64,000 nucleotides of DNA, taken from the NCBI RefSeq assembly GCF_036023875.1, contig NZ_CP107931.1:992001-1056000 (forward strand), given 5' to 3'. The first letter of the stretch is position 1. Each line of letters begins with the position of its first letter. A model generated the notes under the pieces. The model had not been told where the DNA came from. It searched no databases and was given only the letters and a program-made list of their open reading frames with translations. Below, piece by piece: positions 8,607 through 38,496 of the stretch. This stretch comes from Mycobacterium sp. NBC_00419 (GTDB lineage: Bacteria > Actinomycetota > Actinomycetes > Mycobacteriales > Mycobacteriaceae). The translations under genes and the position numbers were made by a program.

Positions 8607-8607
8607 C

Positions 8608-23456: not shown

Positions 23457-23556
23457 GGCCCGAACCTCCGTCATTTCTTGCGTGTTGGCCGGTAAGACAC
23501 TACTTGCCGACAGCGCTCCGAGACGGGTGGAACCGCGCCGGGATGCCCCATGGGCT

Positions 23557-23562
23557 TACTGT
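23557..23562 (+). promoter_or_regulatory. Candidate -10 box for leaderless orn
   Basis: TACTGT lies 8 nt before GTG 23571. No ribosome site precedes that GTG, which supports both leaderless initiation and the short N-terminus. Confidence 0.4.
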
Positions 23563-23570
23563 GGATCGCT

Positions 23571-24206: not shown

Positions 24207-24233
24207 TATCGACGACGCCGGTTTTCCGGCAAT

Positions 24234-24307
24234 GGTGGCTGTAGTTCAGTTGGTAGAGCACCAGGTTGTGATCCTGGCTGTCGCGGGTTCGAGTCCCGTC
24301 AGCCACC
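24234..24307 (+). tRNA. tRNA-His (GTG anticodon)
   Basis: A full cloverleaf is readable: acceptor GTGGCTG (24235-24241) pairing with CAGCCAC (24300-24306), D-arm AGTTCAGTTGGTAGAGCA, anticodon loop TTGTGAT and T-arm CGGGTTCGAGTCCCG. G24234 and C24307 fit the extra G-1:C73 pair of tRNA-His. The 3' part from 24262 onward is duplicated at 37122-37168, so this gene is the integration target of the downstream element. Confidence 0.97.
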
Positions 24308-24308
24308 C
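24262..24308 (+). other. Attachment site attL (within tRNA-His)
   Basis: These 47 bp run from the anticodon stem to one base past the discriminator and are identical to 37122-37168. Using the tRNA 3' half as the crossover target is typical of tyrosine-integrase elements. Confidence 0.9.
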
Positions 24309-24313
24309 TGCAG

Positions 24314-24347
24314 GTCAGGCCCCCTTTCGAGGGGGCCTGACTTTTTT
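24314..24347 (+). terminator. Rho-independent terminator of tRNA-His
   Basis: An 11-bp perfect stem GTCAGGCCCCC / GGGGGCCTGAC with loop TTTCGA is followed by six T. It is paralogous to the hairpin after attR (37174-37208) but with a different stem sequence, so this copy probably arrived with the element. Confidence 0.9.
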
Positions 24348-24363
24348 CTTGCCACAGCTCGCG

Positions 24364-24381
24364 TGACCCTAGCGTGACTCT
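24364..24381 (+). promoter_or_regulatory. Candidate integrase arm-type sites, left end
   Basis: Direct repeats TGACCCT (24364-24370) and TGACTCT (24375-24381) are spaced 11 bp apart. The same pair with the same spacing occurs at the other end (36997-37014). This is the arrangement expected for integrase arm-binding sites. Confidence 0.5.
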
Positions 24382-24506
24382 CACGCCCCGGCGAGGCCAA
24401 CCTCGACACCGAGCTGGGGCGGATGAAGGCTCAGGCAGCCAAGCGTGCTCAAACTCGCGGCGCTGCCGAGCCGATTCAGCCTCCAGCCGGGGAAACATAC
24501 GAAGAA

Positions 24507-24528
24507 GGCCCCCGCCGGAGCGGGGGCC
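24507..24528 (-). terminator. Terminator downstream of the ParB-like gene
   Basis: A 9-bp stem GGCCCCCGC / GCGGGGGCC with a 4-nt loop is followed on the minus strand by TTCTTCGT. It sits just after the stop of the minus-strand gene ending at 24550. Between it and the arm sites is about 120 bp with an open frame on the plus strand (about 24383-24541) but no start signal. Confidence 0.7.
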
Positions 24529-24549
24529 CTCTTCATTGAGCGGGGCGTT

Positions 24550-25365
24550 TTAGAGCACGATCTTGGTGGCCTCAGACCGGCGACCCTTATTCCACTGCTG
24601 TACGAGCAGGTTGTAGCACGTCATAACACGGCCACCGGTACCTGAGTGCTGGGTGCCGCCAGCCGAGCTGAGAGCGTGGACCTTCCCGCGCCACCCAGCG
24701 GCGTGCCCCGCCTTGGCGATCTTCTTGGCCAGTTCGTCGTCGCTCTCAACCAGGCCACCGTGGCGACCCAGGAACTCGCCGATGCCGCCGAGCAACATTC
24801 CGTCCCACGTTTCCGCCGTGCGACCCCAAGCCTTTTCAGCGACCTTCAGCGTGCGGCCGAGGGTGTCGGCCCCATACTTGTCGGTGATACGAAGCACTCC
24901 GTTTACCGCGCCGATGGAATTGGCGCTGGTGGTGCCCATCTTGAGGTCGTGCGCCTTCAGCGTCTTCTCGGTGTCGACGAAGAGCGGGATACCTCCGGTG
25001 AGCCCAATGACATACTCATCAATCGCAGCGGGCCGTGAGCTCTCACGGTTCTTGATGAGGAACAGAATCGCTTCCTCGGTCTGAGTCAATCCGCGGTGAA
25101 TCTCGCACATGACCAATTCCCGGCCCAGAAGCTGGCTCGCGCGCCAGCGATGCTGCCCGTCCACGATGTACATCTCGCCGTTGGCGCGCTCGGAAACGAT
25201 GATCGTCCCGATAGCTTCGGCGATGAACTCGTCGGCCAGTTTCTGCGCCCGCTTCTCGTTAAGCGTGCGCTGGGCCTGAGGATCGATCTTGAGGTCCGCG
25301 ACCTTCACTTCTTCGCCGTAGTCAACTTTGTGCTCCGGCAGCTTGTACTCGTACTTCGTCGCCAT
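24550..25365 (-). CDS. ParB-like nuclease-domain protein (DUF6551-like)
   Basis: The 271-residue product has a ParB/sulfiredoxin-like N-domain: PQAQRTLNEKRAQKLADEF, IIVSERANGEMYIVDGQHRWRAS (GxHR motif) and CEIHRGLTQTEEAILFL. The C-terminal half is helical and unlike chromosomal ParB; no ParA is present. Similar proteins are common in mycobacteriophages and plasmid-like elements, where their role (segregation, nicking or regulation) is mostly untested. The start has AGGAG 5 nt upstream. The promoter region to its right contains repeated motifs (25434-25495). It is the last minus-strand gene before attL. Confidence 0.8.
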   Translation of the reverse strand: MATKYEYKLPEHKVDYGEEVKVADLKIDPQAQRTLNEKRAQKLADEFIAEAIGTIIVSERANGEMYIVDGQHRWRASQLLGRELVMCEIHRGLTQTEEAILFLIKNRESSRPAAIDEYVIGLTGGIPLFVDTEKTLKAHDLKMGTTSANSIGAVNGVLRITDKYGADTLGRTLKVAEKAWGRTAETWDGMLLGGIGEFLGRHGGLVESDDELAKKIAKAGHAAGWRGKVHALSSAGGTQHSGTGGRVMTCYNLLVQQWNKGRRSEATKIVL

Positions 25366-25433
25366 GACGACTCCTATTTTTTCAGTGCGCCTGGGGGAAT
25401 GCCTATCGGCGGGGGAAGCGGCGCATTTTCAGT

Positions 25434-25495
25434 GTAGCTGATGCGCAGAGTTGACTGCAACTTTAATGCGTTACCTGATGTCGTAGTTGATGCGC
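25434..25495. promoter_or_regulatory. Repeat-rich control region upstream of the ParB-like gene
   Basis: GTAGCTGATGCGC (25434-25446) recurs as GTAGTTGATGCGC (25483-25495), 12 of 13 bases identical. Between them is a perfect short palindrome AGTTG-ACTG-CAACT (25449-25462). It lies in a 209-bp gap with no gene and is plausibly an operator set, or a binding site for the ParB-like protein itself. Confidence 0.45.
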
Positions 25496-25574
25496 GCCTT
25501 AGTGCTCAACTCATGCCGCAGTTGGAACTCGCCATGCCAATCGTGGACAGCAGCGGCGCTGAGGAGGTCGAACA

Positions 25575-26180
25575 CTAACCTTGACTCGACCTGGTGGCAG
25601 CCTCCGATCGGTCAGCCAGGTAGTCGATCCAGTGCCGTCGCCACTTGGCCACGTTCGCCCTCTGGTTGCACGGAACGAGGTTGTTCACAACGTGGCCGGG
25701 GGTGTTCGGTTGGCTCAGCGGCACGGCGTGGTCGATGTGCCAGCCGTCCTGCAGCGGCTCCCAGGTGTAGACACACCGAGCCGGATCGATGCCTCGGCGT
25801 TCCCAGTCTGCGATTAGCTCGTCAGCGGTGATGTGCTTGGCGACCACGCCGGCTCTCTCTGCGCGGAGCCGGCCTCGCCGCAGCCGCTCCTCTAACGGGT
25901 GTGTGTCGCGGTGGGTCTTGGCGATGGCGTGCCATCGATCGGGATTGGCGGCCCGCCAATGCTTCTGGCGGCACGCCTGGCGCTCCGGCGTGCGGCGTTG
26001 GTAGTCGCGGGTGCCGGCGTTGTCGCAGTCGCGGCACCGGCTGCGTATTCCCATCCAGCCACGCCGATTCGGCTTAAACCGGTCGATAGGCAGCACGCCT
26101 TCACATGCTGAGCAGTGCTTTAGGCCGTGCCCATACAGCGCCATGCGGCGTTGTTGTTCATCGCGGGTGATCATCCCCAT
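25575..26180 (-). CDS. HNH endonuclease, phage type
   Basis: The 201-residue product has an N-terminal zinc-binding CxxC pair twice (HCSACEG; SRCRDCDN) and a C-terminal HNH core: GWHIDHAVPLSQPN, then HVVNNLVPCNQRANVAKW. The histidine-Asp-His, Asn and distal Asn/Arg all appear intact. The ATG has AAGGAG 8 nt upstream. In phages such proteins sit near packaging genes or act as free-standing homing endonucleases; here there is no terminase. It may aid element spread or phage interference (inference). Confidence 0.82.
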   Translation of the reverse strand: MGMITRDEQQRRMALYGHGLKHCSACEGVLPIDRFKPNRRGWMGIRSRCRDCDNAGTRDYQRRTPERQACRQKHWRAANPDRWHAIAKTHRDTHPLEERLRRGRLRAERAGVVAKHITADELIADWERRGIDPARCVYTWEPLQDGWHIDHAVPLSQPNTPGHVVNNLVPCNQRANVAKWRRHWIDYLADRSEAATRSSQG

Positions 26181-26217
26181 TGGTCAGACTCCTTTTGATT
26201 AGTGGATTCGTGAAAGA

Positions 26218-26391
26218 TCAGCGCACACCGGGGTGGCGTGGCAGTGCGGGTCGATCGGCGAGGGGCTGCTGATCTACCAGCGCCCGCGCCATGCACGGCC
26301 GGCATACGACGTATTCACGTCCGGTGCCGGTGTCGATAGCGTTGACCGTCGCGGTGCCGGTGCAGCCGCGCTTCCTGAATTGGCATCTCAT
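26218..26391 (-). CDS. Small zinc-ribbon-like protein
   Basis: The 57-residue product starts MRCQFRKRGCTGTATV after AAGAGGA. Cysteines are arranged C-x6-C, then VVCRPCMARAL (C-x2-C), consistent with one zinc site. A longer in-frame start (26448) exists but lacks a ribosome site. Such mini-proteins are frequent in mycobacteriophage early regions; the function is unknown. Confidence 0.6.
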   Translation of the reverse strand: MRCQFRKRGCTGTATVNAIDTGTGREYVVCRPCMARALVDQQPLADRPALPRHPGVR

Positions 26392-26867
<476 letters not shown>

Positions 26868-27341
26868 GTGACGACACCTGCCGAACTCGGCACCCAGGCG
26901 ATAGGGGCAGCCGGTGAGCTGTTAGTTCAGTACCAGTTGCTTAAGCGCGGGATCGACAGCGCCCGCCTGACTACTGACTCCGGTATCGACCTCGTGATGT
27001 ACGTCCCGGGTAGCCAAGAAGCCGCAACGGTCCAAGTTAAAGCAAGATTCGGGCCAGCGCCGTCCGGTGGAAAGGGCAAGCTCAGCGTCGGGTTTCCCTT
27101 CCCACACAAGTGCCCTGCCCAATGGCTGGCATGCGTTGACCTGTCTCGCGACCTGGTTTGGCTTCTACGCATTGATGAAGCGCGCCAAAAGGCGCAACAG
27201 CACCGAACCGATGACAGCCGACTGCTGTACTGGTATGTCGACGAAACCGTGACGAGCGGTGCGCTGGTCGAGAGTCAGATGGCCGAGTACAGACTCGAAT
27301 CTGTCGCCAACCAACTGCTCGCGAAGGGCAACGCTGAGTAG
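26868..27341 (+). CDS. PD-(D/E)XK-fold nuclease-like protein
   Basis: The 157-residue product has a GTG start with AGGAGA about 8 nt upstream. The sequence GAAGELLVQYQLLKRG, then DSGIDLVMYVPG, then ATVQVKARFG gives the Glu...Asp...Gln-x-Lys pattern of the restriction-endonuclease-like fold (E16, D41, QVK near 56). Similar small proteins often carry the DUF4365-like or 'group I intron endonuclease-like' label. It is one of few plus-strand genes in the element and is followed 138 bp later by a membrane protein on the same strand. A DNase role in defence or recombination is plausible but unproven. Confidence 0.65.
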   Translation: MTTPAELGTQAIGAAGELLVQYQLLKRGIDSARLTTDSGIDLVMYVPGSQEAATVQVKARFGPAPSGGKGKLSVGFPFPHKCPAQWLACVDLSRDLVWLLRIDEARQKAQQHRTDDSRLLYWYVDETVTSGALVESQMAEYRLESVANQLLAKGNAE

Positions 27342-27478
27342 CCGGTTGACTGCCTCTGCTGGCTAGCTCTGCAAAACACGGCCTCTGTCGGCACAGTTGA
27401 CGATGCCCATTGTCACAAGAATTGTCGGAACGACCGCATATCGTGTTGATTTCAAGTTTCCGATCAACAGGGGGTTCG

Positions 27479-27976
27479 ATGAACGCCGACGGTGCCGACG
27501 ACGGGCAGCTGCCCAAGCTTTCCAAAGCACCAACTGGCCGCTATCGCACAGTGTTATTGACGATCCTCGCTGTGTCGGCCGTCGGTGCCGTTGGCTTGCT
27601 CGGCGTACTTACCTACTACACAGTGACCGATCACATCAAGGCCGATCAGGCGGCAGCCGAGGCGAAACGGACCGAGGTAGACAAGGCTCAATTGGTCGCC
27701 CAAGTAACGAATGGCCTACAGGGCATTGTGGATAAGGACGAATCAACCAAGGACTTCCACATCACAATTCAGGGTGACCTTGCGCTCTTCCAGTTGGTCA
27801 AGGGCGGTAGCGAGTACAAGGGTCTGGTTACAGCGAAGACGCAGAAGGGGACAGACGTACCCGTCGAGGTAACCGCCTATGCGGACGGCAGCGGAGCGAT
27901 CTTCTACCAGATTGAACCGGGGTCAGACATTCGTCTGACTCAAACAGCAAGTGAAGAGAAGCGGGGTTGGAACTAA
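27479..27976 (+). CDS. Single-pass membrane protein of unknown function
   Basis: The 165-residue product starts MNADGADDGQLPKL; AGGGGG just upstream supports ATG 27479 over the 27410 start. A transmembrane helix (TVLLTILAVSAVGAVGLLGVLTYY, about 24-47) is followed by a short coiled stretch (ADQAAAEAKRTEVDK). An external beta-rich domain follows, with VTAYADGSGAIFYQIEPGSD, vaguely like DUF4333-type domains. Lysogen-expressed membrane proteins in mycobacterial prophages often have this layout and can act in superinfection exclusion; that is inference. Confidence 0.65.
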   Translation: MNADGADDGQLPKLSKAPTGRYRTVLLTILAVSAVGAVGLLGVLTYYTVTDHIKADQAAAEAKRTEVDKAQLVAQVTNGLQGIVDKDESTKDFHITIQGDLALFQLVKGGSEYKGLVTAKTQKGTDVPVEVTAYADGSGAIFYQIEPGSDIRLTQTASEEKRGWN

Positions 27977-28117
27977 GGACAGTTGGTAGCCGGGGCCGCC
28001 GAGTCCCGTGGGCACTCGCCAGGAAAGGGCCTACCGCACAGATCATTAGGTCCCTACCTCTGGGCCAGGCGTATGAGTCCTGACTTCACCTGTCACGACA
28101 CCATTCCACTGCTCCCG

Positions 28118-28543
28118 CTACATCCCACCGTCCGCGTTGATCGTTCCGTTGTCGCCAAGGCCGCTGAGTGCGGCGCGAAGCACTGCCGCACCGTTGAGCG
28201 GGATCGGGGTATTGGGATCTCGTTGCCCTGCGATGGCGGCGCTTGCGACGCCGGCAGCGGTCTGCGGTGCATTTCGAGCCTCCTCGTCGGCCTGCCGGTG
28301 GGCTTCGCGTTCAGCTTCGACCGCGTGATTCCGGCGGAGGTGCTCGATGGCGAGGTCGTACCACTCGGACTGTCGTTCTTCTGGAAGTCCTGGGACTCGT
28401 GTGATGCGCCGGCTTTCGAGGCGGCGTCCCACGGCCTGGCTGAAGCTGTCCGCGATCGCTTGGGGCTTCTCGCCCACCGTCGCTGCGAGGCGACGGCTCA
28501 GCAGCTCGGCTGCGCTCGACTTGCGGTTGATGTTGTTCGTCAT
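28118..28543 (-). CDS. Hypothetical phage-type protein, helical N-terminus
   Basis: The 141-residue product starts MTNNINRKSSAAELL with AAGGA 6 nt upstream. The N-terminal ~100 residues are helical and charged (AIADSFSQAVGRRLESRR; HAVEAEREAHRQADEEAR). The tail is Ala/Gly-rich. No family is recognised. It lies 73 bp after the 254-aa gene, with a hairpin between them. Confidence 0.55.
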   Translation of the reverse strand: MTNNINRKSSAAELLSRRLAATVGEKPQAIADSFSQAVGRRLESRRITRVPGLPEERQSEWYDLAIEHLRRNHAVEAEREAHRQADEEARNAPQTAAGVASAAIAGQRDPNTPIPLNGAAVLRAALSGLGDNGTINADGGM

Positions 28544-28570
28544 TGGTATTCCTTAGGTAGTGCACGAGAA

Positions 28571-28597
28571 CGGCCCCCAGCGCGATGCTGAGGGCCG
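28571..28597 (-). terminator. Hairpin between two phage-type genes
   Basis: CGGCCCCCAGC / GCTGAGGGCCG pairs with one mismatch around a 5-nt loop. On the minus strand it is followed by TTCTCGT. It may attenuate transcription from the 254-aa gene into the 141-aa gene. Confidence 0.45.
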
Positions 28598-28615
28598 CTC
28601 TACGGGGTTGGTGGG

Positions 28616-29380
28616 TCAGCGAAAGACTGCGGTGTCCTGGCGCGCGAGGTGAACTTCCAAGCGCGCCTTGGTTTCGGCGCATTCGGCCAGGGTGTTGATG
28701 CCGAACTCGATACCGCGTCGGGCAGCGGTGAATAGGACGGGATCAATCGCTGCCAGTGTCGGGTTCGCCGGTTTCTGTTGGGCCTCTTCGAGTTTGATGA
28801 GGTCGAGCAGAGTCTGGGGCCGAAGAATCCGGATCGCCGGATACCTCTCAGCGGCGGAGGAACCTGACAGCGGTCCGGTGCCGGCGACCCACACGCTGAT
28901 GCCGTTGAGGTACTGGGCCTCACGCTGGGCCACCTGGTAGCTGCCCACGGCCTCTGGGCCAGCGGACAGGAGGGTGTCTGAGCTGATGTCCTCAGGCAGG
29001 GCGGCGACGGCTTCGGCGTAGGCCTCGGCGTGGCGGTTGAACTCGGGGGTCAGCTGGTCGATGACATCGGCGACCGCTTGGCGACCGAGGCTGATGACGC
29101 TGCGGGCTGCGGTATCGACGGCGTAGGTCTTGGCTCTTTCGAGCACAGACAAGCCGCCGGCTGGCGCCTGGGCGAGTGCCAGCTCCTCGGCGAGCTGGCG
29201 GATCTTGTCCTCGGCGTTGGCTGGTGTGACTGCGGTGATGTCGAACACCGGCTGGTAGCCAACTTCGGTGTAGCGCAACGCCTCGTACACATCGATTGCC
29301 TTCGCTAGGTCGTTGGGCAGCGTGACGCCCAGGCTGGTCCAGCGGGTGACGGTGTCGGCGATAGAACTCAGATCGAACAT
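28616..29380 (-). CDS. Hypothetical helical protein, phage-element type
   Basis: The 254-residue product starts MFDLSSIADTVTRWTSLG. Predicted helices dominate; ANAEDKIRQLAEELALAQA and EFNRHAEAYAEAVAALPE look coiled-coil-like. There is no signal peptide or membrane segment, and no known catalytic motif. The ribosome site is AAGGA, rather distant (~11 nt). It resembles hypothetical proteins of mycobacteriophage non-structural regions in style, but I cannot name a family. Confidence 0.55.
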   Translation of the reverse strand: MFDLSSIADTVTRWTSLGVTLPNDLAKAIDVYEALRYTEVGYQPVFDITAVTPANAEDKIRQLAEELALAQAPAGGLSVLERAKTYAVDTAARSVISLGRQAVADVIDQLTPEFNRHAEAYAEAVAALPEDISSDTLLSAGPEAVGSYQVAQREAQYLNGISVWVAGTGPLSGSSAAERYPAIRILRPQTLLDLIKLEEAQQKPANPTLAAIDPVLFTAARRGIEFGINTLAECAETKARLEVHLARQDTAVFR

Positions 29381-29487
29381 TTGGTGGTGGTTTCCTTCGT
29401 GGTTGATTGCGCCTTGCCAATCAGGGCATGGTGACGCGGCCTGTACGGGCCGCTGACGGAACTTCGTTGCACTCGTGGGTAGTTGGG

Positions 29488-29736
29488 CTACCCCGGTGAG
29501 TAACTACTGGCGAGATCGGCAGCGAGCTGCTGCAGATCCACCGGTGGTTCGGAGCGGGTCACGACGACGCCGTGTGCTTCGAGCGCCAACGCAAGTTCCA
29601 GCGCGGCACGCTGGCGACTGCGGTAGCCGAGGTTCTTGGCCTGGCGGCATCGCTTGCACCAACCATCGGCGTCGCGATCATGCGCCGTGCGGATTTCGTG
29701 GCCGGCTGGGCAGAGTGCGGGGTTCGTGTTGTTCAC
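29488..29736 (-). CDS. Small Cys-rich (zinc finger-like) protein
   Basis: The 82-residue product starts at GTG (MNNTNPALCPAGHEIR). A four-ligand zinc motif is likely: LCPAGHE, then WCKRCRQAKN (C-x3-H ... C-x2-C), the pattern seen in phage HNH-adjacent DNA-binding proteins. The helical remainder is Ala/Leu-rich. GAGAGGAG directly abuts the GTG, an unusually tight ribosome site. It is a free-standing gene between a terminator and the 254-aa gene. Confidence 0.55.
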   Translation of the reverse strand: MNNTNPALCPAGHEIRTAHDRDADGWCKRCRQAKNLGYRSRQRAALELALALEAHGVVVTRSEPPVDLQQLAADLASSYSPG

Positions 29737-29779
29737 CTCCTCTCAGGTCTGTTCGAACAGGGAATCGGGCAAAATGAAA

Positions 29780-29807
29780 CCGCCCCAGCACATTGAGGCT
29801 GGGGCGG
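29780..29807 (-). terminator. Terminator closing the 33.1-29.9 kb coupled gene chain
   Basis: A perfect 10-bp stem CCGCCCCAGC / GCTGGGGCGG with an 8-nt loop is followed on the minus strand by TTTCATTTT. It lies 140 bp downstream of the last gene of the chain (stop at 29949). Confidence 0.75.
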
Positions 29808-29948
29808 GCGACTGGTCGACGTGCACAAGACAGACCCCGACCTGCCAGGAGGCGCAAGGGTCGGGGCCTGACTCGGAGTGCAGCAATCAACCGGATGAAG
29901 GCGGTCTTGCGCCCTCTACTGATTACGGAATACTTCGGCGGCAGGCTC

Positions 29949-30902
29949 CTAGGCCGCGTTGGACAACACCTTCTTGCCGTCGTGGGTCGATTCCGGTAGC
30001 GGCCCGCCGTCGGCGTTCACGCTGGCGATGCTGCCCACCGGATCGGGGTAACTGGTGGTCGATCCTGCACCTATCGGTACCGCACCCGCACGGAAGAACT
30101 TCAGCCAGGGATCAGCTGCCCAGAACGGCACCGTCCACGGCACCACCGCGCTCTTGGCTTCCCGCATGTCATGCCGCGCAGGGAAACGCTCTTGAGTGCT
30201 GGCAAGCCTGTGGGGGCGTTTGGCAGCAGTGACCGAAGCCCCTCGGTCGGCTGGTTCCGGTGGCGGCTGGTGACCGCTTCTGATCGCACGGGCGACCGCA
30301 CGCTGCCAACGGCCACGCTCGTTGTCGCGCAACCGAGTGCATTCAGCAGTGCAACACATTCTCGGCTGACCCTTGTTGCGCTCGTATCCGCTCACCACCA
30401 GGTGGCGCAGCGTGCACCCTGAACATTGGCAATCGACAAACTCGACATCGAACTCGCACCGGTACTTCGTTGCGGTGACCTTCGGCGTCGGCAGCTCGTC
30501 GCCGCAATACGCGCAATGCGTCCGCCGCGCCGTCTTCCACGGCCGGCTGCGCGGATCGCTGACGATGAATCCGTGCCCACCGTCGACAATCTCGCCCGCC
30601 GGATTCGTCTTCGGCTTCACCCTGACCGTGTCAACGATGTCCCCCTGCTCGAAGATCTCGAACGTCGCGGTCTTGCCGTTCGTGAGCTTCACCCTGGCGG
30701 TTCTGCCGCTGGTACCGACGCGCGTATCCTTCGGCCGCGCGTATACCGGATCGTCATCGCCGTCCGTGCCCATCGCAGGGCCGTGCTCAGATTCGAACGG
30801 ATTGCGGTCAGCATCCTGGAAATCCCGCCGTTCGTCCTCGCTCTCATCGCTGAGTTCGTCCACCAGGACTTCGCGCCACGGTTCGTGACTCTCCTTATCC
30901 AT
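29949..30902 (-). CDS. Hypothetical zinc-binding protein of the element's replication module
   Basis: The 317-residue product starts MDKESHEPWREVL, inside the last codons of the Rep-like gene (8-bp overlap). The N-terminal 60 residues are strongly acidic. A central Cys cluster is evident: HCAYCGDE, then VDCQCSGCTLRHL, then RMCCTAECTRLRDNERGRW, enough for two zinc sites. The C-terminal ~100 residues are low complexity. Function is unknown; the position right after a Rep-like protein suggests a DNA-replication or regulatory partner. Confidence 0.6.
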   Translation of the reverse strand: MDKESHEPWREVLVDELSDESEDERRDFQDADRNPFESEHGPAMGTDGDDDPVYARPKDTRVGTSGRTARVKLTNGKTATFEIFEQGDIVDTVRVKPKTNPAGEIVDGGHGFIVSDPRSRPWKTARRTHCAYCGDELPTPKVTATKYRCEFDVEFVDCQCSGCTLRHLVVSGYERNKGQPRMCCTAECTRLRDNERGRWQRAVARAIRSGHQPPPEPADRGASVTAAKRPHRLASTQERFPARHDMREAKSAVVPWTVPFWAADPWLKFFRAGAVPIGAGSTTSYPDPVGSIASVNADGGPLPESTHDGKKVLSNAA

Positions 30903-32031
30903 GTCCTGTGATGCCTTCCTGTGATTGGTGATTGGTATAGCTCGACGGGTAGGCGACTCGGTTCGCCTGCTGTCGTTGTTCGATGCGGTCGATCTGGTCG
31001 GCCAATGCGCCGGCACAACCCAACTCCTGCGCCAACGGTTCGACAGGCGGCTGGGCTGCTCGAAACCATCGCCGTGGCCGGCCTGCGATGGCCACGGCCA
31101 TGCAGTTGTCGAACAGCTTCGTCAGGGCGTTATCGACTGTGCGGCGTGACCATCCGGTTTCCGCTGCCAGCTCGTCGGCATACTTGCCGATGCGGTCGAC
31201 GGCGTCGTCCTCGAACACCGAGGCCGGATCGTCCACCGCGAACACGGCGCAGCCGGGATACTCTGGAAGCGCCGACCAGACCTGTCGTGCGCTCTGGCCC
31301 AGCCCGTTTCGCGACCAGAGATCGTGGACAGACAGGTCGATCACGCTGACGTTGTCTGCCAATTGGCAGAAAGACGTCAATGAGTATTTGCTGGTACTCC
31401 TTGACTTGTTTATGCCATTTGGTTGTCCCAGGTGGGAGTCCCCAGGACTCCCGGCATGCCAGTACAGGTTGATCCGGTACCTGCTCGTGGACCGGCTCGA
31501 AGGACGCCGGTCCGTTCGGTCTTCTTTGTCGAGAAGCCCGAGCTGGACGAGGGCGGTCAGCCCCTTGCCGACCACGTCGGGCGAAAGGCCCGGCGTGTGC
31601 TTCGCCAGTTCGTACCGCGACAGCGTCCGGGTGAAGCAGTTGCGATCCCGGCAGTAGCCGACGAACGCCAGCGCCACCGTCTGGTTACGCCGCCCCGCCC
31701 TGCCCGGCCAGGCGGCCGAACTGATCCGATCCTCAAGATCAGCCAGGGCATCGTCCAACTCGAACGGCTTGGACTGTGCTGACTTATCCCACGCACTCTC
31801 CAAGTGCTTGCCTTGCTCGGTCGCCGAATCGCTCGTGGAGCAGATGTACGAGGTCCACAGCGTGGACGCCTGCACCCAACGGTAGTAGTCGTCTTCGTCG
31901 CCGCCCTGGTTGCGAATCCGGTTGGCGATCGGCAACAACTCCCTGCCCACCCATGTGCCGTTCTGGTGTTCAGACCCCAGCAGCCGCAGCGTGGCCGCGT
32001 CGGGTTCGAATTCAAGTGCCAGTGCTGTCAC
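30895..32031 (-). CDS. Double winged-helix protein, Rep/initiator-like
   Basis: In this 378-residue product two winged-helix segments stand out: TLSRYELAKHTPGLSPDVVG with ALVQLGLLDKED (about 130-170), and YADELAAETGWSRRTVDNA with ALTKLFDNCMAV (about 285-320). The spacing of two wHTH domains in one chain is typical of plasmid and satellite replication initiators. No nickase or primase motif is visible, so a purely regulatory role remains possible. Its start overlaps the preceding gene by 4 nt (ATGA) and its end overlaps the next by 8 nt, so it is translated as part of a chain. Confidence 0.6.
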   Translation of the reverse strand: MTALALEFEPDAATLRLLGSEHQNGTWVGRELLPIANRIRNQGGDEDDYYRWVQASTLWTSYICSTSDSATEQGKHLESAWDKSAQSKPFELDDALADLEDRISSAAWPGRAGRRNQTVALAFVGYCRDRNCFTRTLSRYELAKHTPGLSPDVVGKGLTALVQLGLLDKEDRTDRRPSSRSTSRYRINLYWHAGSPGDSHLGQPNGINKSRSTSKYSLTSFCQLADNVSVIDLSVHDLWSRNGLGQSARQVWSALPEYPGCAVFAVDDPASVFEDDAVDRIGKYADELAAETGWSRRTVDNALTKLFDNCMAVAIAGRPRRWFRAAQPPVEPLAQELGCAGALADQIDRIEQRQQANRVAYPSSYTNHQSQEGITGHG

Positions 32032-32282
32032 TGGGCCGCTGCCAACCGGGCACCGTGCCAGGGCGATGAGATCGCCGTGCCGGCCAGCACGCCGTTTCGA
32101 ACCGCAGGCGGGACGTACACCGACATCTCGACCCGCCCGAACATCCAGTCGTCCCCATCGCGCACCAGCGGGCTCCGCAGCACCTCGACTCGCTCAGAAC
32201 CACCGATGGCAATCAGGAAGCACGGCTGCACGACCTCCAAGGGCAAGCAGGCGGTGTTACCCGCCTCCCCGATCCCCGTCAC
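32028..32282 (-). CDS. Small hypothetical protein in coupled chain
   Basis: The 84-residue product starts MTGIGEAGNTACLPLE. Beta-rich (FLIAIGGSERVEVLRSPLV; MFGRVEMSVYVP), with no known domain. It is joined to both neighbours by 4-nt ATGA overlaps, which is the main evidence that it is a gene. Confidence 0.55.
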   Translation of the reverse strand: MTGIGEAGNTACLPLEVVQPCFLIAIGGSERVEVLRSPLVRDGDDWMFGRVEMSVYVPPAVRNGVLAGTAISSPWHGARLAAAQ

Positions 32283-32557
32283 TGGTACGCCACTTCGAGG
32301 TCGGCTCCGTGGTCCATCCGCGCCCAGTACCGGAGGCCATCGAGCATTGCGGCGGAACCTGTGTGGGCAGCTGCTTCGCGGGCGCGCCTGCGCCCCTGGC
32401 GAACCCAGGCTTCTGGAAGCGCAGCAACGCCGGTTCCACGCCCTTGCGCGTGGTAGCTGATCCTCTCCGGTGCTACACCAAGCAGCAGCGACAAGGCTGC
32501 GGTGTCCAGCATTAGCTCACCATCGACATGCCGAACACTGATGACCGTCCTGCTCAT
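32279..32557 (-). CDS. Small HTH-like protein, candidate excisionase/regulator
   Basis: The 92-residue product starts MSRTVISVRHVDGELML with AAGGAAGG upstream. LDTAALSLLLGVAPERISYH has the spacing of a helix-turn-helix that opens many MerR/excisionase-type proteins, and the size fits. The remainder is basic (WVRQGRRRAREAAAH). It heads the run 32557 to 29949 of overlapping genes. An Xis or replication-control role is inference. Confidence 0.5.
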   Translation of the reverse strand: MSRTVISVRHVDGELMLDTAALSLLLGVAPERISYHAQGRGTGVAALPEAWVRQGRRRAREAAAHTGSAAMLDGLRYWARMDHGADLEVAYQ

Positions 32558-32618
32558 ATGTTGTTGCCTTCCTTGGCAGTTGAACTCTTGGGTGGCGCTG
32601 CCCCTAGTCGCCGCGCCG

Positions 32619-32942
32619 TCACAACGTCGCCAGCGCGTTCTCGTAGGCGTCCCGCAGCCCTGCCCGTAGATCGATCCCTTGCCGCTCTGCGACATCGAGC
32701 ACTGGGGCCAGGACGTGGCGCGTCATCATGGACAAGGCGCTGGCCGCGACGTACCCGAAGCTGTCGGGGCCGATCAGGTCCAACCACTGCGCTGCCACTG
32801 CGTCGGTCCGGTTGTCGTCACCCGCCGACTGCGCGAACGCGTACATCAGCAATGTGGCATTCGACTCGAGGTCATCGAGATTGATCTCACCCATCAGCTG
32901 ACCGCCGTCGCCGACGACCTGAACTGTCCTATGTCCACTCAT
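32619..32942 (-). CDS. Hypothetical small protein, early gene of the coupled chain
   Basis: The 107-residue product starts MSGHRTVQVVGDGGQLM; AGGAGG lies 7 nt upstream of the ATG, so the longer upstream frame is rejected. It has a short beta start, then an acidic helical body (DDLESNATLLMYAFAQSAGD). No family is recognised. Its start overlaps the stop of the preceding 69-aa frame by 4 nt. Confidence 0.6.
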   Translation of the reverse strand: MSGHRTVQVVGDGGQLMGEINLDDLESNATLLMYAFAQSAGDDNRTDAVAAQWLDLIGPDSFGYVAASALSMMTRHVLAPVLDVAERQGIDLRAGLRDAYENALATL

Positions 32943-33148
32943 TGCATTGCCTCCTGCGTAACTCGTGGCAGCTCTCCCGCTGCCGTGGGGTGGCCTGTTG
33001 ACCGTTCGTCGCGCACTACGTAGATGCCGTTGCTCCTGCGGGCTATCGCCGTCGCACATCCGCCGTAGTTGCGTGTGGCCGCTGCTGTCCCTCGTGGTCC
33101 GGCCTGCTGAGACTTGTGGCCCCAGCGGTTCCTCGCCTCCGTCGTCAT
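32939..33148 (-). CDS. Short basic protein, first gene after the divergent operator
   Basis: The 69-residue product starts MTTEARNRWGHKSQQ, basic and without a known domain. Support comes from its ATGA overlap with the next gene and its position as first reading frame after the operator region. No strong ribosome site is visible, so it could instead be leader sequence. Confidence 0.4.
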   Translation of the reverse strand: MTTEARNRWGHKSQQAGPRGTAAATRNYGGCATAIARRSNGIYVVRDERSTGHPTAAGELPRVTQEAMQ

Positions 33149-33166
33149 CTGCCCGACTTGATGAAG

Positions 33167-33221
33167 TATGCATCATGTCATCATGTTCATCAAGATAAAC
33201 ATGATGATGCTATGCATCATG
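33167..33221. promoter_or_regulatory. Operator array in the divergent control region of the element
   Basis: TATGCATCATG occurs at 33167-33177 and again at 33211-33221, 44 bp apart. The second copy is half of a perfect inverted repeat ATGATGC-TAT-GCATCAT (33204-33220). Related CATCATG/TTGATGACATG words lie between and just beyond (to 33256). The array separates the leftward gene chain from the rightward regulator, as in lysis-lysogeny or SaPI-type switches. Confidence 0.6.
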
Positions 33222-33240
33222 ATTAGTCGCCTCGGCGGGC

Positions 33241-33246
33241 TAAACT
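33241..33246 (+). promoter_or_regulatory. -10 box for a leaderless regulator transcript
   Basis: TAAACT ends 7 nt before ATG 33254 and there is no ribosome site. A TTGATGACATG word resembling the operator half-site overlaps the transcription start, so the product could be autoregulated. Confidence 0.5.
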
Positions 33247-33253
33247 TGATGAC

Positions 33254-33757
33254 ATGGAGAGAGTTACCGACATCGTGAAGCCATTTCGTGTCCAGCTCGT
33301 GCACGATGCGGACGACCGGCTTATCGGCGTCAACATCAGGGCCGGCGACGGCGCGGAGCTGGATCACGACATGGTCAGGGAGGCGACTAGATCGCTTCTT
33401 GATCACCTCAAGCGGGATCAACTGAGCGCGGTGAAAGATGCCCGGCACGAGCGTTCGGCCATGCTGGATTCACTAGCCGAGGCGTACCAAGCTGGTGTTA
33501 CGGATGAATACTTGGCGCGGCTAGCTGTCGCCTACGAGGAGCTGTCGGCTAACGGATACAACCGTGCCACGACCATACTGGCCAGTGCAATTGGCGGGGC
33601 TAATACGCTTCCTCGGCCAACAGTCCGCACGCACGTCAAGCGCGCTAGAGACGCGGGATTCCTGACGCAGACGACGCAAGGCAAAGGCGGTGGCCAGGCC
33701 ACTGACCAGGCGCGAGCACTGCTGGAGAAGCTGGCCGCAGGCAACACCGAGACTTGA
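33254..33757 (+). CDS. Predicted DNA-binding regulator of the element
   Basis: The 167-residue product starts MERVTDIVKPFRVQLVH. The N-terminal half has a beta hairpin (ADDRLIGVNIRAGDGAEL) and charged helices. The C-terminal half carries an HTH-like stretch, YNRATTILASAIGGANTL then RPTVRTHVKRARDAGFLTQ (about 105-145). It is transcribed alone, away from the leftward chain, from a control region full of repeats. It is the best candidate for the element's repressor or master regulator. There is no similarity to integrases or Cro-type repressors that I can name. Confidence 0.6.
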   Translation: MERVTDIVKPFRVQLVHDADDRLIGVNIRAGDGAELDHDMVREATRSLLDHLKRDQLSAVKDARHERSAMLDSLAEAYQAGVTDEYLARLAVAYEELSANGYNRATTILASAIGGANTLPRPTVRTHVKRARDAGFLTQTTQGKGGGQATDQARALLEKLAAGNTET

Positions 33758-33773
33758 CACCCACCGAGTGGGG

Positions 33774-34952
33774 CTAGACCGACTCGCCCACTTCGTCCTC
33801 CTGCGGGGGGGCAGCTAAAGCACCTCCGCTTTCGTACTGGCGGATCACTTGCCTGATCTGCTCAGCGGCCACGGTGTAGATGTCCACTACAGAAGCGATG
33901 TCACGGCGCGTTCCGTCTTTTCCGCCCTCGAAGGTGGTCACGAACTTGACGCTCTTGCCGTTCAGGTGCAAACGGATGATTGGCTTGCGGTTGTTGTTGT
34001 CCAACAGAACGGCGAAGTACGTCTTCCCATCGCGGTGATGGATACGTTCCGGTCCTACCTCTGACACCGCTATCGCGCGAACGATGTTGAAGCCTTCCAG
34101 TTCCTCATCGGTGGTCACCACGTCGGGGTCTGTCACTTCGGCTACGCCAACGGGCTCCGCGATTGACGCTTGCCCCGTAGGTGGCTGGGCCGGCGCAGAG
34201 GGTACGAGCTCAGTCGAGCGATTGGGGTCTGGCGCATCGTCACCCAAAGCCGTCTTCAACCTGCTGTTGACCTGGTCCCCCACATACTGGTTGAGCGCCT
34301 TTGCAACCAGCGGTCGGAACTGGTCAAGGATGCGTTGTGTAGTGCGCCCCTCGTAGATGCGGTTCACAAAGAACCGCACCCACTCCTCGGAGGGTTCTTT
34401 AACCTCCGCGGCGATGATTCGGCGGATACCGCCGATGTACTTGAGTTCCTCCGCGGCGCTGACCACGGAGTCGATGTCGAAAGATTCTTTCGAGAACTTC
34501 TGAATCTCGGGGACGAGCGTCCTGTCGATGTCGAGTAGATCGAAGATCAGGAATGGCTTTTCATCCATACGATTCGGTAGGTCGCCATCCGTATAGACGT
34601 GGTACTGCTGTCCGTTGGTCAATATCGCGATCCGGGCTGAGGTGACCGCGAAGTAGCGGAATAGCTGCGATGCGTAGCGGAGATCGAGTGTGTCGCCGAT
34701 TCTCTTGCACTCAATCAGAATCTGGACCTTGCCGTCCTTAAAGATCGCGTAGTCGACCTTCTCGCCCCTCTTGACGCCGACATCCGCGATGAACTCGGGC
34801 ACAACCTCCGAGGGATCGAACACGTCGTAACCGAGCACGTTCGAGATAAACGGCATGATGAACGCATTCTTGGTCGCCTCTTCGGTCTGCACCGAATCCT
34901 TGGCGTCACGGATCTTCCTAGCTAGTGCCGCGAGCCCGTCTGAAAAAGCCAT
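33774..34952 (-). CDS. Orphan HsdR-N-type restriction-endonuclease-like protein
   Basis: The 392-residue product starts MAFSDGLAALARKIRD; GGAGG lies 8 nt upstream, so the longer frame to 35003 is rejected. The N-terminal domain matches the type I restriction R-subunit nuclease (HSDR_N_2 style): ATKNAFIMPFISNVLGYDVF, then VDYAIFKDGKVQILIECKRIG (Asp...Glu-x-Lys) and YFAVTSARIAILTNGQQYHVYTD. There is no helicase domain and no HsdM or HsdS nearby. The C-terminal ~100 residues form a separate domain (YFAVLLDNNNRKPIIRLHLNG). It is probably a lysogen-expressed nuclease used in phage defence. It converges with the regulator at 33254-33757 and is divergent from the DUF2510 gene. Confidence 0.75.
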   Translation of the reverse strand: MAFSDGLAALARKIRDAKDSVQTEEATKNAFIMPFISNVLGYDVFDPSEVVPEFIADVGVKRGEKVDYAIFKDGKVQILIECKRIGDTLDLRYASQLFRYFAVTSARIAILTNGQQYHVYTDGDLPNRMDEKPFLIFDLLDIDRTLVPEIQKFSKESFDIDSVVSAAEELKYIGGIRRIIAAEVKEPSEEWVRFFVNRIYEGRTTQRILDQFRPLVAKALNQYVGDQVNSRLKTALGDDAPDPNRSTELVPSAPAQPPTGQASIAEPVGVAEVTDPDVVTTDEELEGFNIVRAIAVSEVGPERIHHRDGKTYFAVLLDNNNRKPIIRLHLNGKSVKFVTTFEGGKDGTRRDIASVVDIYTVAAEQIRQVIRQYESGGALAAPPQEDEVGESV

Positions 34953-35120
34953 CCCCGAAGCCTCCAACGCGATGTCGTACGAACCAGCTAATCCATGTTG
35001 CAAAGAACCCTAGATGAACGGGGTGACATTCCACTTGATGATGGAGCGGAAAAATGTCGACCGAAGCGAGAACGCCCCGGTAACCCCTCGCCATCATCGC
35101 GCCTTTCGAGACCCTGTAGT

Positions 35121-35152
35121 TATGCTGTCGACGAGCTGTGAGCGGCACAGCT
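35121..35152 (+). promoter_or_regulatory. Promoter and inverted repeat upstream of the DUF2510 gene
   Basis: TATGCT (35121-35126) is a good -10. It is followed by AGCTGTG-AGCGG-CACAGCT (35134-35152), a perfect 7-bp inverted repeat that would fall in the 5' leader, either as operator or RNA hairpin. The 219-bp gap also must hold the promoter of the divergent nuclease gene. Confidence 0.5.
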
Positions 35153-35171
35153 AACAGAGATTGGGGGTTTC

Positions 35172-35855
35172 ATGACGCAGCCAGCACCGGGTTGGTTTCC
35201 CGATCCCGCTGATCCGAGCCGCCAGCGCTACTTCGACGGCACAGCTTGGACGCAGAATTACGCCCCGTTCGGGCCACCAGCACCACTCCCCGCCCCAGTG
35301 GCCAAGCCCAAATCCAACGCTGGAAAGACGGCCGTCGCTGTTGGCGGCGGACTGTTAGTACTGCTGGCGGTTGGCAGCGCCATCGGGGACAACGACAAGA
35401 AGTCCACCGCGACGGGCTCGAGCACGTCTTCCACCGCCAGGGCGTACAGCACCCAGGCTGCCGACTCATCCGGCCCCTCGGTAGCGCCGGCTGGCAGCTC
35501 AGTCCGTGACGGCAAGTTCGAGTTCAGGGTGATCGGCACATCGAGGGGCGGTACCTCGATGGAGGACACCTTCGGCACCGAACACGCCAAGGGCGAGTTC
35601 TTCGTAGTCCAACTCCAGGTGACCAACATCGGTGATGACGCCCGGAGCTTCTCGGCCACCAACCAGAAGCTGATCATCAACGGCAACGAGTACAAGGCCA
35701 CCAGTTTCCTGAACGACAGCTCCTGGAGCGATGACATCAACCCCGGTCTGGGAACGACTGGCAGGGTCGTATTCGACATCCCGAAGGGAGCGGTTCCTAC
35801 CGAGATCGAGGTCCATGACTCGATGTTCTCGGGCGGGGCGTTGCTCGCCCTCTAA
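35172..35855 (+). CDS. DUF2510-TM-DUF4352 protein (lysogeny-type membrane protein)
   Basis: The 227-residue product has an N-terminal DUF2510 motif, PGWFPDPADPSRQRYFDGTA (residues 6-25). Next come a Pro linker, one transmembrane helix (TAVAVGGGLLVLLAVGSAIG, about 52-71) and a Ser/Thr-rich spacer. The outer Ig-like DUF4352 domain follows (EFFVVQLQVTNIGDDARSF; QKLIINGNEYKA; GRVVFDIPKGAVP). The combination is common in actinobacterial chromosomes and in mycobacterial prophages near the integrase/immunity region. The ribosome site GGGGG supports ATG 35172. Its stop overlaps the convergent int stop by 4 bp. Confidence 0.85.
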   Translation: MTQPAPGWFPDPADPSRQRYFDGTAWTQNYAPFGPPAPLPAPVAKPKSNAGKTAVAVGGGLLVLLAVGSAIGDNDKKSTATGSSTSSTARAYSTQAADSSGPSVAPAGSSVRDGKFEFRVIGTSRGGTSMEDTFGTEHAKGEFFVVQLQVTNIGDDARSFSATNQKLIINGNEYKATSFLNDSSWSDDINPGLGTTGRVVFDIPKGAVPTEIEVHDSMFSGGALLAL

Positions 35856-36991
35856 CCTTTCCCCACCATCTGCGACATAGCGGCCGCGATCGCGGCGTCA
35901 CGATCGGCTGCGGCGATCTGATACCGCATCGCCATTCCTGGCGTCGTATGCCCTAGCCGGCTCATCAGCTCTTTGGTGGTCGCACCAGCCTGCGCCGCGA
36001 GAGTCGCCCCGACGTGCCTGAGGTCGTGAACTCGCATGTCGCCCTTGCCAACTGCGGCGAATCCTGCCTTAACCGACTTGGTGAAGGCTGTTGTGGACAG
36101 CCGCTGCCCGCGTGTCGTCGTGAAGACAAACGACTCAGGCCCATGGCCTGTGCGCTTCCGCATGTGCTCGCGGAGCTGCTCCGCGACGTGGGGCGGGACG
36201 GTGACATCACGAATGCCGGCATCCGTCTTCGGCGGTCCGACAACCAATTTGTTGTCGACTCTCGTTGCAGCCCTGCGGATTCTGAGCGTGATGCGCTCAC
36301 CATCGTCATGCACGTCCTTGCGGCGAAGCTCGATAAGCTCACCAAACCGCAGCCCGCACCAGGCCGCGACGGGCACCGCCACCCTGTATTGCTCCGGTGC
36401 CGACTCAGCCACCGTGACCAATTCCGCCGGTGTCAGCGGCTTCACGTCGCGGGGCTTGGGCGGCTTGCCGGCCGCTTTGATCTGACAAGGGTTCTCCGTC
36501 GCAGCCTTGTCCTCTAGTGCCGTGTTGTAGATGGCATTGAGCAACTGGTACGCCTGCGTGTTGCTCGTCGGAGTCTTGAGCTTCTTTCCCAACTCAACCC
36601 ACCATGAACGCACCCTTGCAGGTGTAACTGCTCGCAGGATTTCATTGCCCAGGTCGGGCAGTATCCGGCTGGCCAGGAGCCGCGTGTAAAGCGCGCGGGT
36701 CTTCGGGGTCAGGTCTCGCTGTTCCATCCATTGTTCGGCGTACTCCCGAATGGTCACGCCCGCGAGCGCCTGGAGCTTGGTGCGGCTCCCAGGCGTCGTC
36801 CACTCCCCCATCTCGATGAGCCGGCGCTCGCCGGCCAGCCAGGCTTCGGCGTCCATCCGGTTGTCATAGGTGTGCGGCGCGTTGTATCGCTGCCCATCCA
36901 ACGGGCACACATAGGAGGCATGAATTCGGCCTGAGCCGATGACACGCAGTTTTCCCCAACTGCGTCTACTGGCAGTCTTCTTTGGGGGCAT
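35852..36991 (-). CDS. int: Tyrosine recombinase / phage-type integrase
   Basis: The 379-residue product starts MPPKKTASRRSWGKLR. An AP2-like arm-binding region at the N-terminus (GSGRIHASYVCPLDGQRY) precedes a SAM-like core-binding domain (TIREYAEQWMEQRDLTPKTR). The catalytic domain keeps Arg in WCGLRFGELIEL, Lys before the beta hairpin, HDLRH (His322, Arg325), SRLGH (His348) and the nucleophile in MAMRYQ (Tyr357). The start is uncertain: an in-frame ATG at 37045 would add 18 residues. It lies 131 bp from attR and reads into the element. It is expected to recombine the tRNA-His 3' end. Confidence 0.92.
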   Translation of the reverse strand: MPPKKTASRRSWGKLRVIGSGRIHASYVCPLDGQRYNAPHTYDNRMDAEAWLAGERRLIEMGEWTTPGSRTKLQALAGVTIREYAEQWMEQRDLTPKTRALYTRLLASRILPDLGNEILRAVTPARVRSWWVELGKKLKTPTSNTQAYQLLNAIYNTALEDKAATENPCQIKAAGKPPKPRDVKPLTPAELVTVAESAPEQYRVAVPVAAWCGLRFGELIELRRKDVHDDGERITLRIRRAATRVDNKLVVGPPKTDAGIRDVTVPPHVAEQLREHMRKRTGHGPESFVFTTTRGQRLSTTAFTKSVKAGFAAVGKGDMRVHDLRHVGATLAAQAGATTKELMSRLGHTTPGMAMRYQIAAADRDAAIAAAMSQMVGKG

Positions 36992-36996
36992 GGCCG

Positions 36997-37065
36997 TGAC
37001 CCTATCATGACCCTCAGGAGTAATTTTGTGTCTACGAGCAGGCATTTCTGTCCACACAAGGGTCA
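36997..37065. promoter_or_regulatory. Candidate integrase arm-type sites and int promoter region, right end
   Basis: TGACCCT at 36997-37003 and 37008-37014 form an 11-bp-spaced direct repeat matching the left-end pair. An inverted copy (AGGGTCA) lies at 37059-37065. The region up to 37121 has no gene; it becomes AT-rich with AATATATGGCATATATA next to attR, a possible IHF-like bend or core-flanking site. Confidence 0.5.
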
Positions 37066-37121
37066 CGTTCACAGCATCAGTAAATGACACTCTAGCTGGC
37101 AATATATGGCATATATACCGT

Positions 37122-37168
37122 CAGGTTGTGATCCTGGCTGTCGCGGGTTCGAGTCCCGTCAGCCACCC
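37122..37168 (+). other. Attachment site attR (tRNA-His 3' remnant)
   Basis: The sequence is identical over 47 bp to 24262-24308. It lacks the acceptor 5' strand and D-arm, so it is not a functional tRNA. The flanking bases diverge immediately on the left and after one mismatch plus ten bases on the right. Confidence 0.9.
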
Positions 37169-37173
37169 AGCAG

Positions 37174-37208
37174 GTCAGGGGTCCTTTCGAGGGCCCCTGA
37201 CTTTTTTT
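37174..37208 (+). terminator. Displaced original tRNA-His terminator
   Basis: Stem GTCAGGGGTCC / GGGCCCCTGAC (one T-G wobble) with loop TTTCGA, then seven T. It has the same architecture as the hairpin at 24314-24347 but a different stem. It is probably the chromosomal terminator that followed tRNA-His before integration. Confidence 0.85.
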
Positions 37209-37360
37209 GTGACTCGCACGGCAAATTTTTGTGACGCGCCCGACAAATCAGCTCCCCATGGATGGCCGGCGGTAATGTGGTGTCAGCTTGCGTTCGGGGG
37301 GGTTTCGACGCCGACTGCAGCGAGAGTTGTCCGCTGAGTTCGTCTTTTGGGGGATTGTTT

Positions 37361-38017: not shown

Positions 38018-38037
38018 GCGGCGGCGTGTGAGGGTGA

Positions 38038-38454: not shown

Positions 38455-38496
38455 TCGACAACCTCTCCATCCGATGTGCACGACGGGTCGCACCTC

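Follow-up and report, generated by a model that had tools for sequence, protein, structure and literature searches.

A probable cos-type phage satellite integrated in tRNA-His of Mycobacterium sp. NBC_00419

Mycobacterium sp. NBC_00419 has a single-contig genome of 5.6 Mb (NZ_CP107931.1), of which we analyzed a stretch of 64,000 nucleotides (positions 992,001 to 1,056,000, forward strand), referred to here as the window. The window contains an insertion of 12,860 bp inside tRNA-His that is bounded by 47-bp direct repeats. This element is very probably a cos-type phage satellite that relies on its own Rep for replication and on the terminase of a helper phage for packaging. The satellite reading is favored because the insertion site is empty in a related genome, no virion genes were recognized in the element, its core is common to elements bearing TerS, capsid, or tape-measure genes, and it carries a phage cos site. 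Features are collected in Table 1, and genomes and loci are denoted by G and L numbers, with G000 being the element itself.

The cos-like site, which the initial annotation did not include, is noncoding and lies upstream of the HNH gene. Among six elements in which the DNA upstream of HNH was compared, a conserved noncoding block was found in G000, G241, G119, and G338; it was weak in G418 and absent from G481. The block matched 562 of 50,697 phage records at E ≤ 10, 532 of them from Mycobacterium phages, and the best phage match to the site was MS619 (E = 4e-13). A trimmed site query matched 547 records at E ≤ 1. When 60 rows were sampled evenly down this ranking, 59 matches were no more than 300 bp from an end of the record, and 28 began at record base 1, all at query position 58. 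Some of the other sampled matches covered only a short palindromic segment close to the right end, and a few of those were in minus orientation. The joined ends of BobSwaget and Trixie (both Fromanvirus) and MA5 (Veracruzvirus) reproduce the site across the cut, which would fall between 26464 and 26463 (GACCGGTCGTTAA^TGCGG), while in MS619, MP1, miche, and prophiT46-3 the site lies within the record. Pairwise alignments of the element's site with phage sites gave 74 to 86% identity, gaps excluded, and the only match in the host genome was the site itself.

Phages L5, D29, and Bxb1 all belong to the genus Fromanvirus, which we take to be cluster A. In MA5, cos is followed by HNH as the first gene and TerS as the second; prophiT46-3 has one small minus-strand open reading frame (ORF) between cos and HNH-TerS; and in Chargerpower the first 33 bases match at 97%, with HNH and TerS at 2.4 to 3.3 kb and TerL at 6.6 kb. 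The PCR-determined ends of cluster A phages are given as 10-nt 3' CGGTCGGTTA (PMC3585329). The element has CGGTCGTTAA at this position, where MA5, miche, and prophiT46-3 differ as well. Two phages with cluster A ends published in that source, 20ES and CRB1, appear among the listed site matches.

The 47-bp repeats that bound the element are identical, and similarity at 93% continues across the terminator to a total of 86 bp. The 86-bp tRNA end plus terminator beside attL aligned identically to the empty site of G098, where window positions 21876-24350 and 37122-38025 are directly contiguous. Because the G098 locus is continuous, the 12,860-bp stretch is an insertion and not a set of core genes. 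The initial annotation had described a 12.9-kb integrative element in tRNA-His between identical 47-bp repeats, one inside the tRNA gene, and this stands in full. It had called the right repeat a fragment, which is fair; ARAGORN also folded that copy as tRNA-His (37093-37169), with a 5' half made of element sequence. Judged by sequence, the att core restores the 3' end of tRNA-His, into which the tyrosine integrase inserted the element. A 183-bp locus query (the end of orn and the start of tRNA-His) matched 196 of 198 sampled same-genus genomes, its own included, with G156 showing 89% identity and G098 coming second with 87%. About 8.6 kb of other genes lie between tRNA-His and the right-flank methyltransferase gene of G156 (L078, about 2744-11371), and the tRNA-His site may be an insertion hotspot. 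The att region matched 753 phage records, and the 12 matches listed were all tRNA-His genes.

Protein families were sought with Pfam and with PHROGs, by scanning 20 window proteins against each; three of every 20 were products of flanking genes. As had been annotated, the element proteins matched no capsid, portal, tail, lysis, or conjugation family. Local profiles found no virion gene in the element, tblastn with Chargerpower TerL and portal found neither of these two proteins, and profiles of satellite TerS and of helper TerS found no TerS. A helper prophage in the host genome was sought with two families, TerL (PF03354) and the HK97 capsid (PF05065), and neither gave a match. A full prophage was rejected because terminase, portal, capsid, tail, and lysis families were not found in the element, and a conjugative element was rejected because no matching families occurred among the scanned proteins. 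An FtsK/TraB-type translocase is a defining feature of actinobacterial integrative conjugative elements, and neither this nor any other transfer gene was found among the Pfam-scanned proteins. The integrase, divergent regulator, ParB-like, HNH, and nuclease genes of the initial annotation were recognized by Pfam or PHROGs matches. Its Rep-like chain was reduced to one Rep, the remainder being small unknown genes. Its preference for a phage satellite or small autonomous element over a full prophage is supported, with the satellite favored on the grounds given above. It had also named two observations that would count against it: capsid, terminase, or portal homologues in the element, of which none was found, and the same genes at this locus in all relatives, which was not seen, the G098 site being empty.

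A colinear core is common to insertions in other Mycobacterium and Mycobacteriales genomes. Local profiles gave the order HTH, o84, Rep or AAA-type RepA, o355, o82, o254, and o141, which is largely maintained, with varying completeness. A Rep search returned 44 proteins including Rep itself, and the five organism names given were all Mycobacterium or Mycolicibacterium; no Rep relative was found in the genome-contig or viral-contig sets, and no o254 relative in the latter. Although 36 of 396 genus genomes passed the Rep profile at E = 0.001, six matches were judged convincing (the element's own, G348, G054, G225, G338, and G185) and the others were short or weak; five of the weak loci turned out to adjoin a cos site. 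The o254 profile matched 10 of the 396 genus genomes and 11 of 401 family genomes (6 of 31 genera), own genome included in each count.

Twenty-two element regions were compared, 19 with o254 and three found by Rep alone (G054, G185, and G225); G621 (o254 profile, E = 2.5e-4) was left out. Each region spans 20 to 64 kb around the profile match, so that element ends are undefined in the relatives. The closest relative is G241 (nuc157 95.5%, o254 90.6%, and o141 87.9% identical). A serine-integrase profile matched 20 of the regions, G523 matched neither integrase type, and a tyrosine integrase beside the core was found in the NBC_00419 element alone, G200 having a weak match about 13 kb away. A local profile detected TerS in 12 of the 22 regions, and the TerS proteins of the four regions tested in PHROGs were phrog_1496 (G054, 2e-18; G348, 4e-9; G185, 8e-20; G418, 5e-19). 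Core-sharing elements also carry a PF05065 capsid (G054, 2e-26; G225, by local profile), scaffold and tail terminator genes, a tape-measure protein (phrog_305 in G009, G193, G481, and G733; E = 4e-206 to 2e-140), and a minor tail protein (G338). No TerS, capsid, tape-measure, or minor tail gene of this kind was found in the NBC_00419 element. The tape-measure genes lie near o254 (L106 15721-17826, L108 15268-17373, L133 12313-14616, and L135 15509-18073), with few or no other tail genes recognized; a satellite that sets the tail length of its helper would be unusual.

The type of cos site differed between regions with and without TerS. A profile built from seven phage cos sites was scanned over the 22 regions (803,919 bases) and gave full-length matches in G000 (65.3 bits, a score not independent of the profile, as explained below), G523 (65.2), G119 (59.1), G241 (58.7), G585 (44.7), G193 (44.6), G338 (39.8), and G731 (30.7), compared to 10.8 bits for the best of ten shuffles. 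These members differ in cargo. Of the 10 regions without TerS, 8 thus had a full-length site, as against none of the 12 that carry TerS (Fisher P = 1.4e-4, uncorrected for relatedness). Ten of these 12 instead gave a partial match of 9.0 to 29.0 bits, extending to model positions up to 59-71, with the cut at about 55. The partial matches lie at TerS or no more than about 120 bp upstream of it (in G418, of the HNH that precedes TerS). The weakest four (G060, G225, G418, and G451; 13.3 to 9.0 bits) are near the shuffle best, and it is position, not score, that supports them. When used as independent queries, two TerS-type sites gave matches that ended at the last base of Mycobacterium phage right ends, the G179 site in 15 of its 20 listed rows and the G009 site in 18 of its 20; single matches were weak (E = 7e-4 to 4), and the remaining listed rows were prophage records and Rhodococcus phage RGL3.

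The site itself was also used as a DNA query and matched 22 of 386 genus genomes, G000 once. Leaving out five genomes of the first set gave a second set of 18 loci; this set was found with the site, so that only its TerS contrast is informative. Thirteen of the 18 have a full-length site, four a partial one (G055, G274, G321b, and G004, all with TerS), and G074 none. Two loci with full sites, G321a and G289, are prophage-like with a helper-type HNH and TerS, and the TerL of G321a is 79% identical to that of Chargerpower. Across both sets, GTACGGGTT is present in all 21 full sites, of which 19 are at loci where no TerS was found and 2 are at the prophage-like loci whose TerS is of helper type; none of the 14 sites adjoining a satellite TerS has it. 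Because it co-occurs with TerS status in this way, we infer that GTACGGGTT is part of the TerS recognition half. MA5 and Chargerpower have helper TerS proteins that share 45% identity; one satellite TerS showed no significant similarity to MA5 TerS, and the helper TerS profile found nothing at E ≤ 0.001 in the 22 regions.

Downstream of the cut, CCGATGC occurs in 6 of the 14 TerS-type sites (L107 233-293, L112 1417-1479, L104 15688-15745, L009 14126-14183, and L045 10354-10406 among the loci). The 13-nt end given for phage 32HC, TCCGATGCGGTGA, begins like these sites (PMC3585329). Two candidates for a TerS substitute were rejected: the ParB-like gene, which follows HNH as TerS does in phages, is present in 1 of 22 regions (the element's own) and has phage relatives that lie close to the immunity repressor in the two phages examined; and HNH, or a strict exclusion between HNH and TerS, is contradicted by G418, which has both, and by G523, G585, and G731, which have a full cos and no match to the element's HNH profile.

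In seven second-set loci, cos is close to a Rep-like gene and a small recombinase, and six of the seven also have a full serine integrase; in G351, the contig ends. Small units L010, L011, L014, L173, L175, and L179, together with L172 at a contig end, hold a full-length cos, a serine integrase, another small recombinase, and a distantly related Rep-like gene in the space of a few kilobases, apparently constituting a second, minimal cos-satellite family. G019 (L182) has capsid and tape-measure genes, a helper-type HNH, and a full-length cos, with no TerS found, and would be a capsid-bearing satellite that still uses the helper cos. No class was assigned to G124, G353, and G129.

Several observations weigh against the satellite reading. 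Induction, packaging, and transfer by a helper are inferred from sequence, and no known capsid-redirecting or interference gene was recognized in the element. TerS was searched for with profiles, which could miss a very divergent TerS. The seven profile phages were chosen from BLAST matches of the element's own site, so its own score is not independent; the profile scores of the other elements and the record-end positions are independent of that site. The related elements that were compared are statistically nonindependent. In addition, G481 and G733 have neither TerS nor a usable cos match, and G565 and G679 carry TerS without an adjacent match (11.7 bits elsewhere in G565, none in G679); all four are from one other genus. 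The exception among the 60 sampled phage matches, MS619, lies about 400 bp off the record end, and 7 of the 40 best rows of the search with the untrimmed block are internal to the record: miche, terelak, and five prophage records that were presumably opened at att. Finally, the figure of four copies per head comes from arithmetic.

If the element is a satellite, the divergent HTH gene is probably its master repressor, relieved upon helper infection. After excision, Rep would drive autonomous replication to concatemers, as its family matches suggest. Helper TerS-TerL would then act on the element's copy of cos, comprising the cut region and the downstream GTACGGGTT half; the site is observed in the DNA and its use is proposed. 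The element's own HNH nuclease perhaps aids packaging. The helpers would be mycobacteriophages of Fromanvirus type (cluster A) and their near relatives. The element is most likely packaged as a tetramer in a capsid of unaltered form, with 4 × 12,860 bp = 51.4 kb fitting the head of such a phage. This is suggested because 13 phage lengths correspond to 3.7 to 4.2 units of 12,860 bp and because there are precedents in the accounts of phage-inducible chromosomal minimalist islands (PICMI; PMC10803314) and of a reduced SaPIbov5 (PMC5052747). At a broader level, the evidence is evenly balanced on whether these elements form a large, modular satellite superfamily of the Mycobacteriales directed at a single group of phages. 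Such elements would share the cut site and right arm of the helper and have interchangeable packaging solutions, either the helper left half-cos without TerS or a foreign half-cos and matching TerS exchanged as one cassette; the NBC_00419 element would be the capsid-less, TerS-less form packaged as exact tetramers, and the capsid or tape-measure genes of its cousins would set head or tail size.

A variant compatible with the satellite reading, in which monomers are packaged in small capsids through an unrecognized capsid-redirecting gene, is possible but considerably less likely than not. One candidate gene would be o254, which is conserved, has no known fold match, and lies beside the tape-measure genes of G009, G193, G481, and G733, hinting at virion assembly. 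A Foldseek search of PDB and BFVD with its structure model (pLDDT, predicted local distance difference test, of 91) gave nothing at E ≤ 0.001, and o254 was rejected as a known virion fold. The helper-type phages are as long as four units of the element, and the element has no capsid or scaffold homologue, both of which speak for tetramers instead. A decayed prophage, stripped of its structural genes but retaining cos, HNH, the ParB-like gene, and the integrase, is very improbable. Part of the integrase gene does resemble mycobacteriophage integrase DNA, the ParB-like and HNH genes have phage relatives (for HNH, 23 phage records at E ≤ 0.001, 22 of them Mycobacterium phages), and cos followed by HNH is also the start of a phage left end. 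Yet o254 and Rep matched none of the 50,697 phage records at E ≤ 0.01 while the core is colinear in many genomes, the core reading frames are open, and the full-length cos occurs in members with different cargo. Equally improbable is an integrative plasmid-like element that replicates and integrates by itself, with the cos-like site idle or otherwise used: its own Rep, the ParB-like gene, and the lack of a detected TerS would suit it, but no transfer genes were recognized, the site matches the genome ends of phages on both sides of the cut, and the right half-site is confined to regions without TerS in the proportions given above.

Table 1. Features of the tRNA-His element (window coordinates)
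Feature	Position	Strand	Evidence or relatives
attL core, 3' part of tRNA-His (24235-24308, ARAGORN)	24262..24308	+	47-bp exact repeat
ParB-like DUF6551 protein	24550..25365	-	PF20188 7e-12; phrog_1033 8e-19
HNH/endonuclease-VII-like nuclease, downstream of cos	25575..26180	-	phrog_1035 6e-22
cos-like packaging site	26430..26514	-	matches joined genome ends of Fromanvirus-type mycobacteriophages
Putative PD-(D/E)XK-like protein, cargo	26868..27341	+	95.5% identical in G241; phrog_5018 1e-5 (unknown function)
Putative membrane protein, cargo, paired with 26868..27341	27410..27976	+	90% identical in G241
o141, core ORF	28118..28543	-	homologues in relatives
o254, core ORF, predicted mainly helical	28616..29380	-	42 proteins including itself
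o82, core ORF, CxxC-type small protein	29488..29736	-	homologues in relatives
o355, core ORF	29949..31016	-	homologues in relatives
Rep, replication-initiator-like, weak HTH matches	30895..32031	-	phrog_678/391 about 1e-5; relatives
o84, small core ORF	32028..32282	-	homologues in G241, G119, G200, and others
o138, early-operon ORF	32279..32695	-	ORF only; no relative among regions searched
o185, early-operon ORF	32619..33176	-	62% identical stretch in G185
Divergent HTH regulator, core gene	33254..33757	+	phrog_11473 1e-10; homologues in relatives
HSDR_N-type nuclease, accessory	33774..35003	-	phrog_4225 5e-118; PF04313
DUF2510-DUF4352 protein, accessory, beside integrase	35172..35855	+	PF11611 1e-23
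Tyrosine integrase	35852..37102	-	PF00589 3e-17; phrog_1 1e-61
attR core	37122..37168	+	47-bp exact repeat; in G098 the 86-bp unit runs into the right flank

The true start of the integrase is probably further in than that of the ORF listed. The cargo genes possibly form a defense pair; the membrane segment of one and the PD-(D/E)XK call of the other were read from the sequence. PADLOC analysis of ten element proteins gave a single weak match (E = 0.018). The HSDR_N nuclease had no blastp match among the 12 relatives compared, and a repeats search of 29000-33800 found no iteron array. To the right of the element (window 38038-39864) are four tandem, evidently paralogous genes of 139 to 151 amino acids, three copies of which match in G098.

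By sequence, the element has the marks of a cos-type satellite: an integrase, att repeats, and an empty relative locus, no virion or large terminase genes, a helper cos, and no TerS of its own. Hijacking of a helper cos is already known from P4 and from the cos-type Staphylococcus aureus pathogenicity islands (SaPIs). The cos SaPIs SaPIbov4 and SaPIbov5 are described as having, like this element, an integrase, regulator, and replication genes, with a cos region in place of the usual packaging operon, and a reduced form of SaPIbov5 seems to enter large capsids as concatemers (PMC5052747); cos SaPIs use the helper terminase directly, according to PMC10690885. The present element differs in host phylum, in having no recognized Ccm-like capsid gene, and in the HNH beside cos, and no sequence relation was shown. 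P4-type satellites likewise have a cos recognized by the helper terminase, as outlined in PMC10690885, whereas no Sid-like gene was recognized in the element and no shared genes were found. PICMI of Vibrionaceae are reported to lack capsid-remodeling genes and to be packaged as concatemers of helper-genome length, but they insert next to fis rather than in tRNA-His, and in the account of PMC10803314 random ends suggest pac-like packaging, with no cos or terS identified there. Phage-inducible chromosomal islands (PICIs) of Escherichia coli are described as having their own cos with a different cosB, read by helper TerS plus Rpp (PMC6739421), a logic resembling the half-cos difference in the TerS-bearing relatives. 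Rpp, however, redirects helper TerS, whereas these relatives carry their own TerS and the NBC_00419 element keeps the helper-like half.

Candidate mycobacterial PICIs such as phiRv1 and phiRv2 occur in the same hosts and have an integrase and phage-like genes; they are defined in PMC10654092, the main text of which never uses the terms cos, packaging, helper, or tape measure, by an integrase and a major capsid gene. G054 and G225 fit this definition, and in the NBC_00419 element no capsid was found. A capsid-forming PICI (cf-PICI) has capsid and packaging genes of its own, and none were found in the element.

A literature search that covered few subscription papers, so that absence is not proof, found in its listings no report of this mycobacterial satellite family or of TerS/half-cos exchange, and, judged from the titles listed, none of satellites with tape-measure genes. 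Surveys keyed to capsid genes would miss this branch of satellites. The pattern of TerS and half-cos separates the cut region from the probable TerS recognition half without mutagenesis. L5, D29, and Bxb1 are standard mycobacterial tools. Because the packaging signal in the element closely resembles that of many mycobacterial phages, in whose particles it probably travels, this large group is suggested as the one to test for helpers, and the cos copy thus points to the likely helper group from sequence alone.

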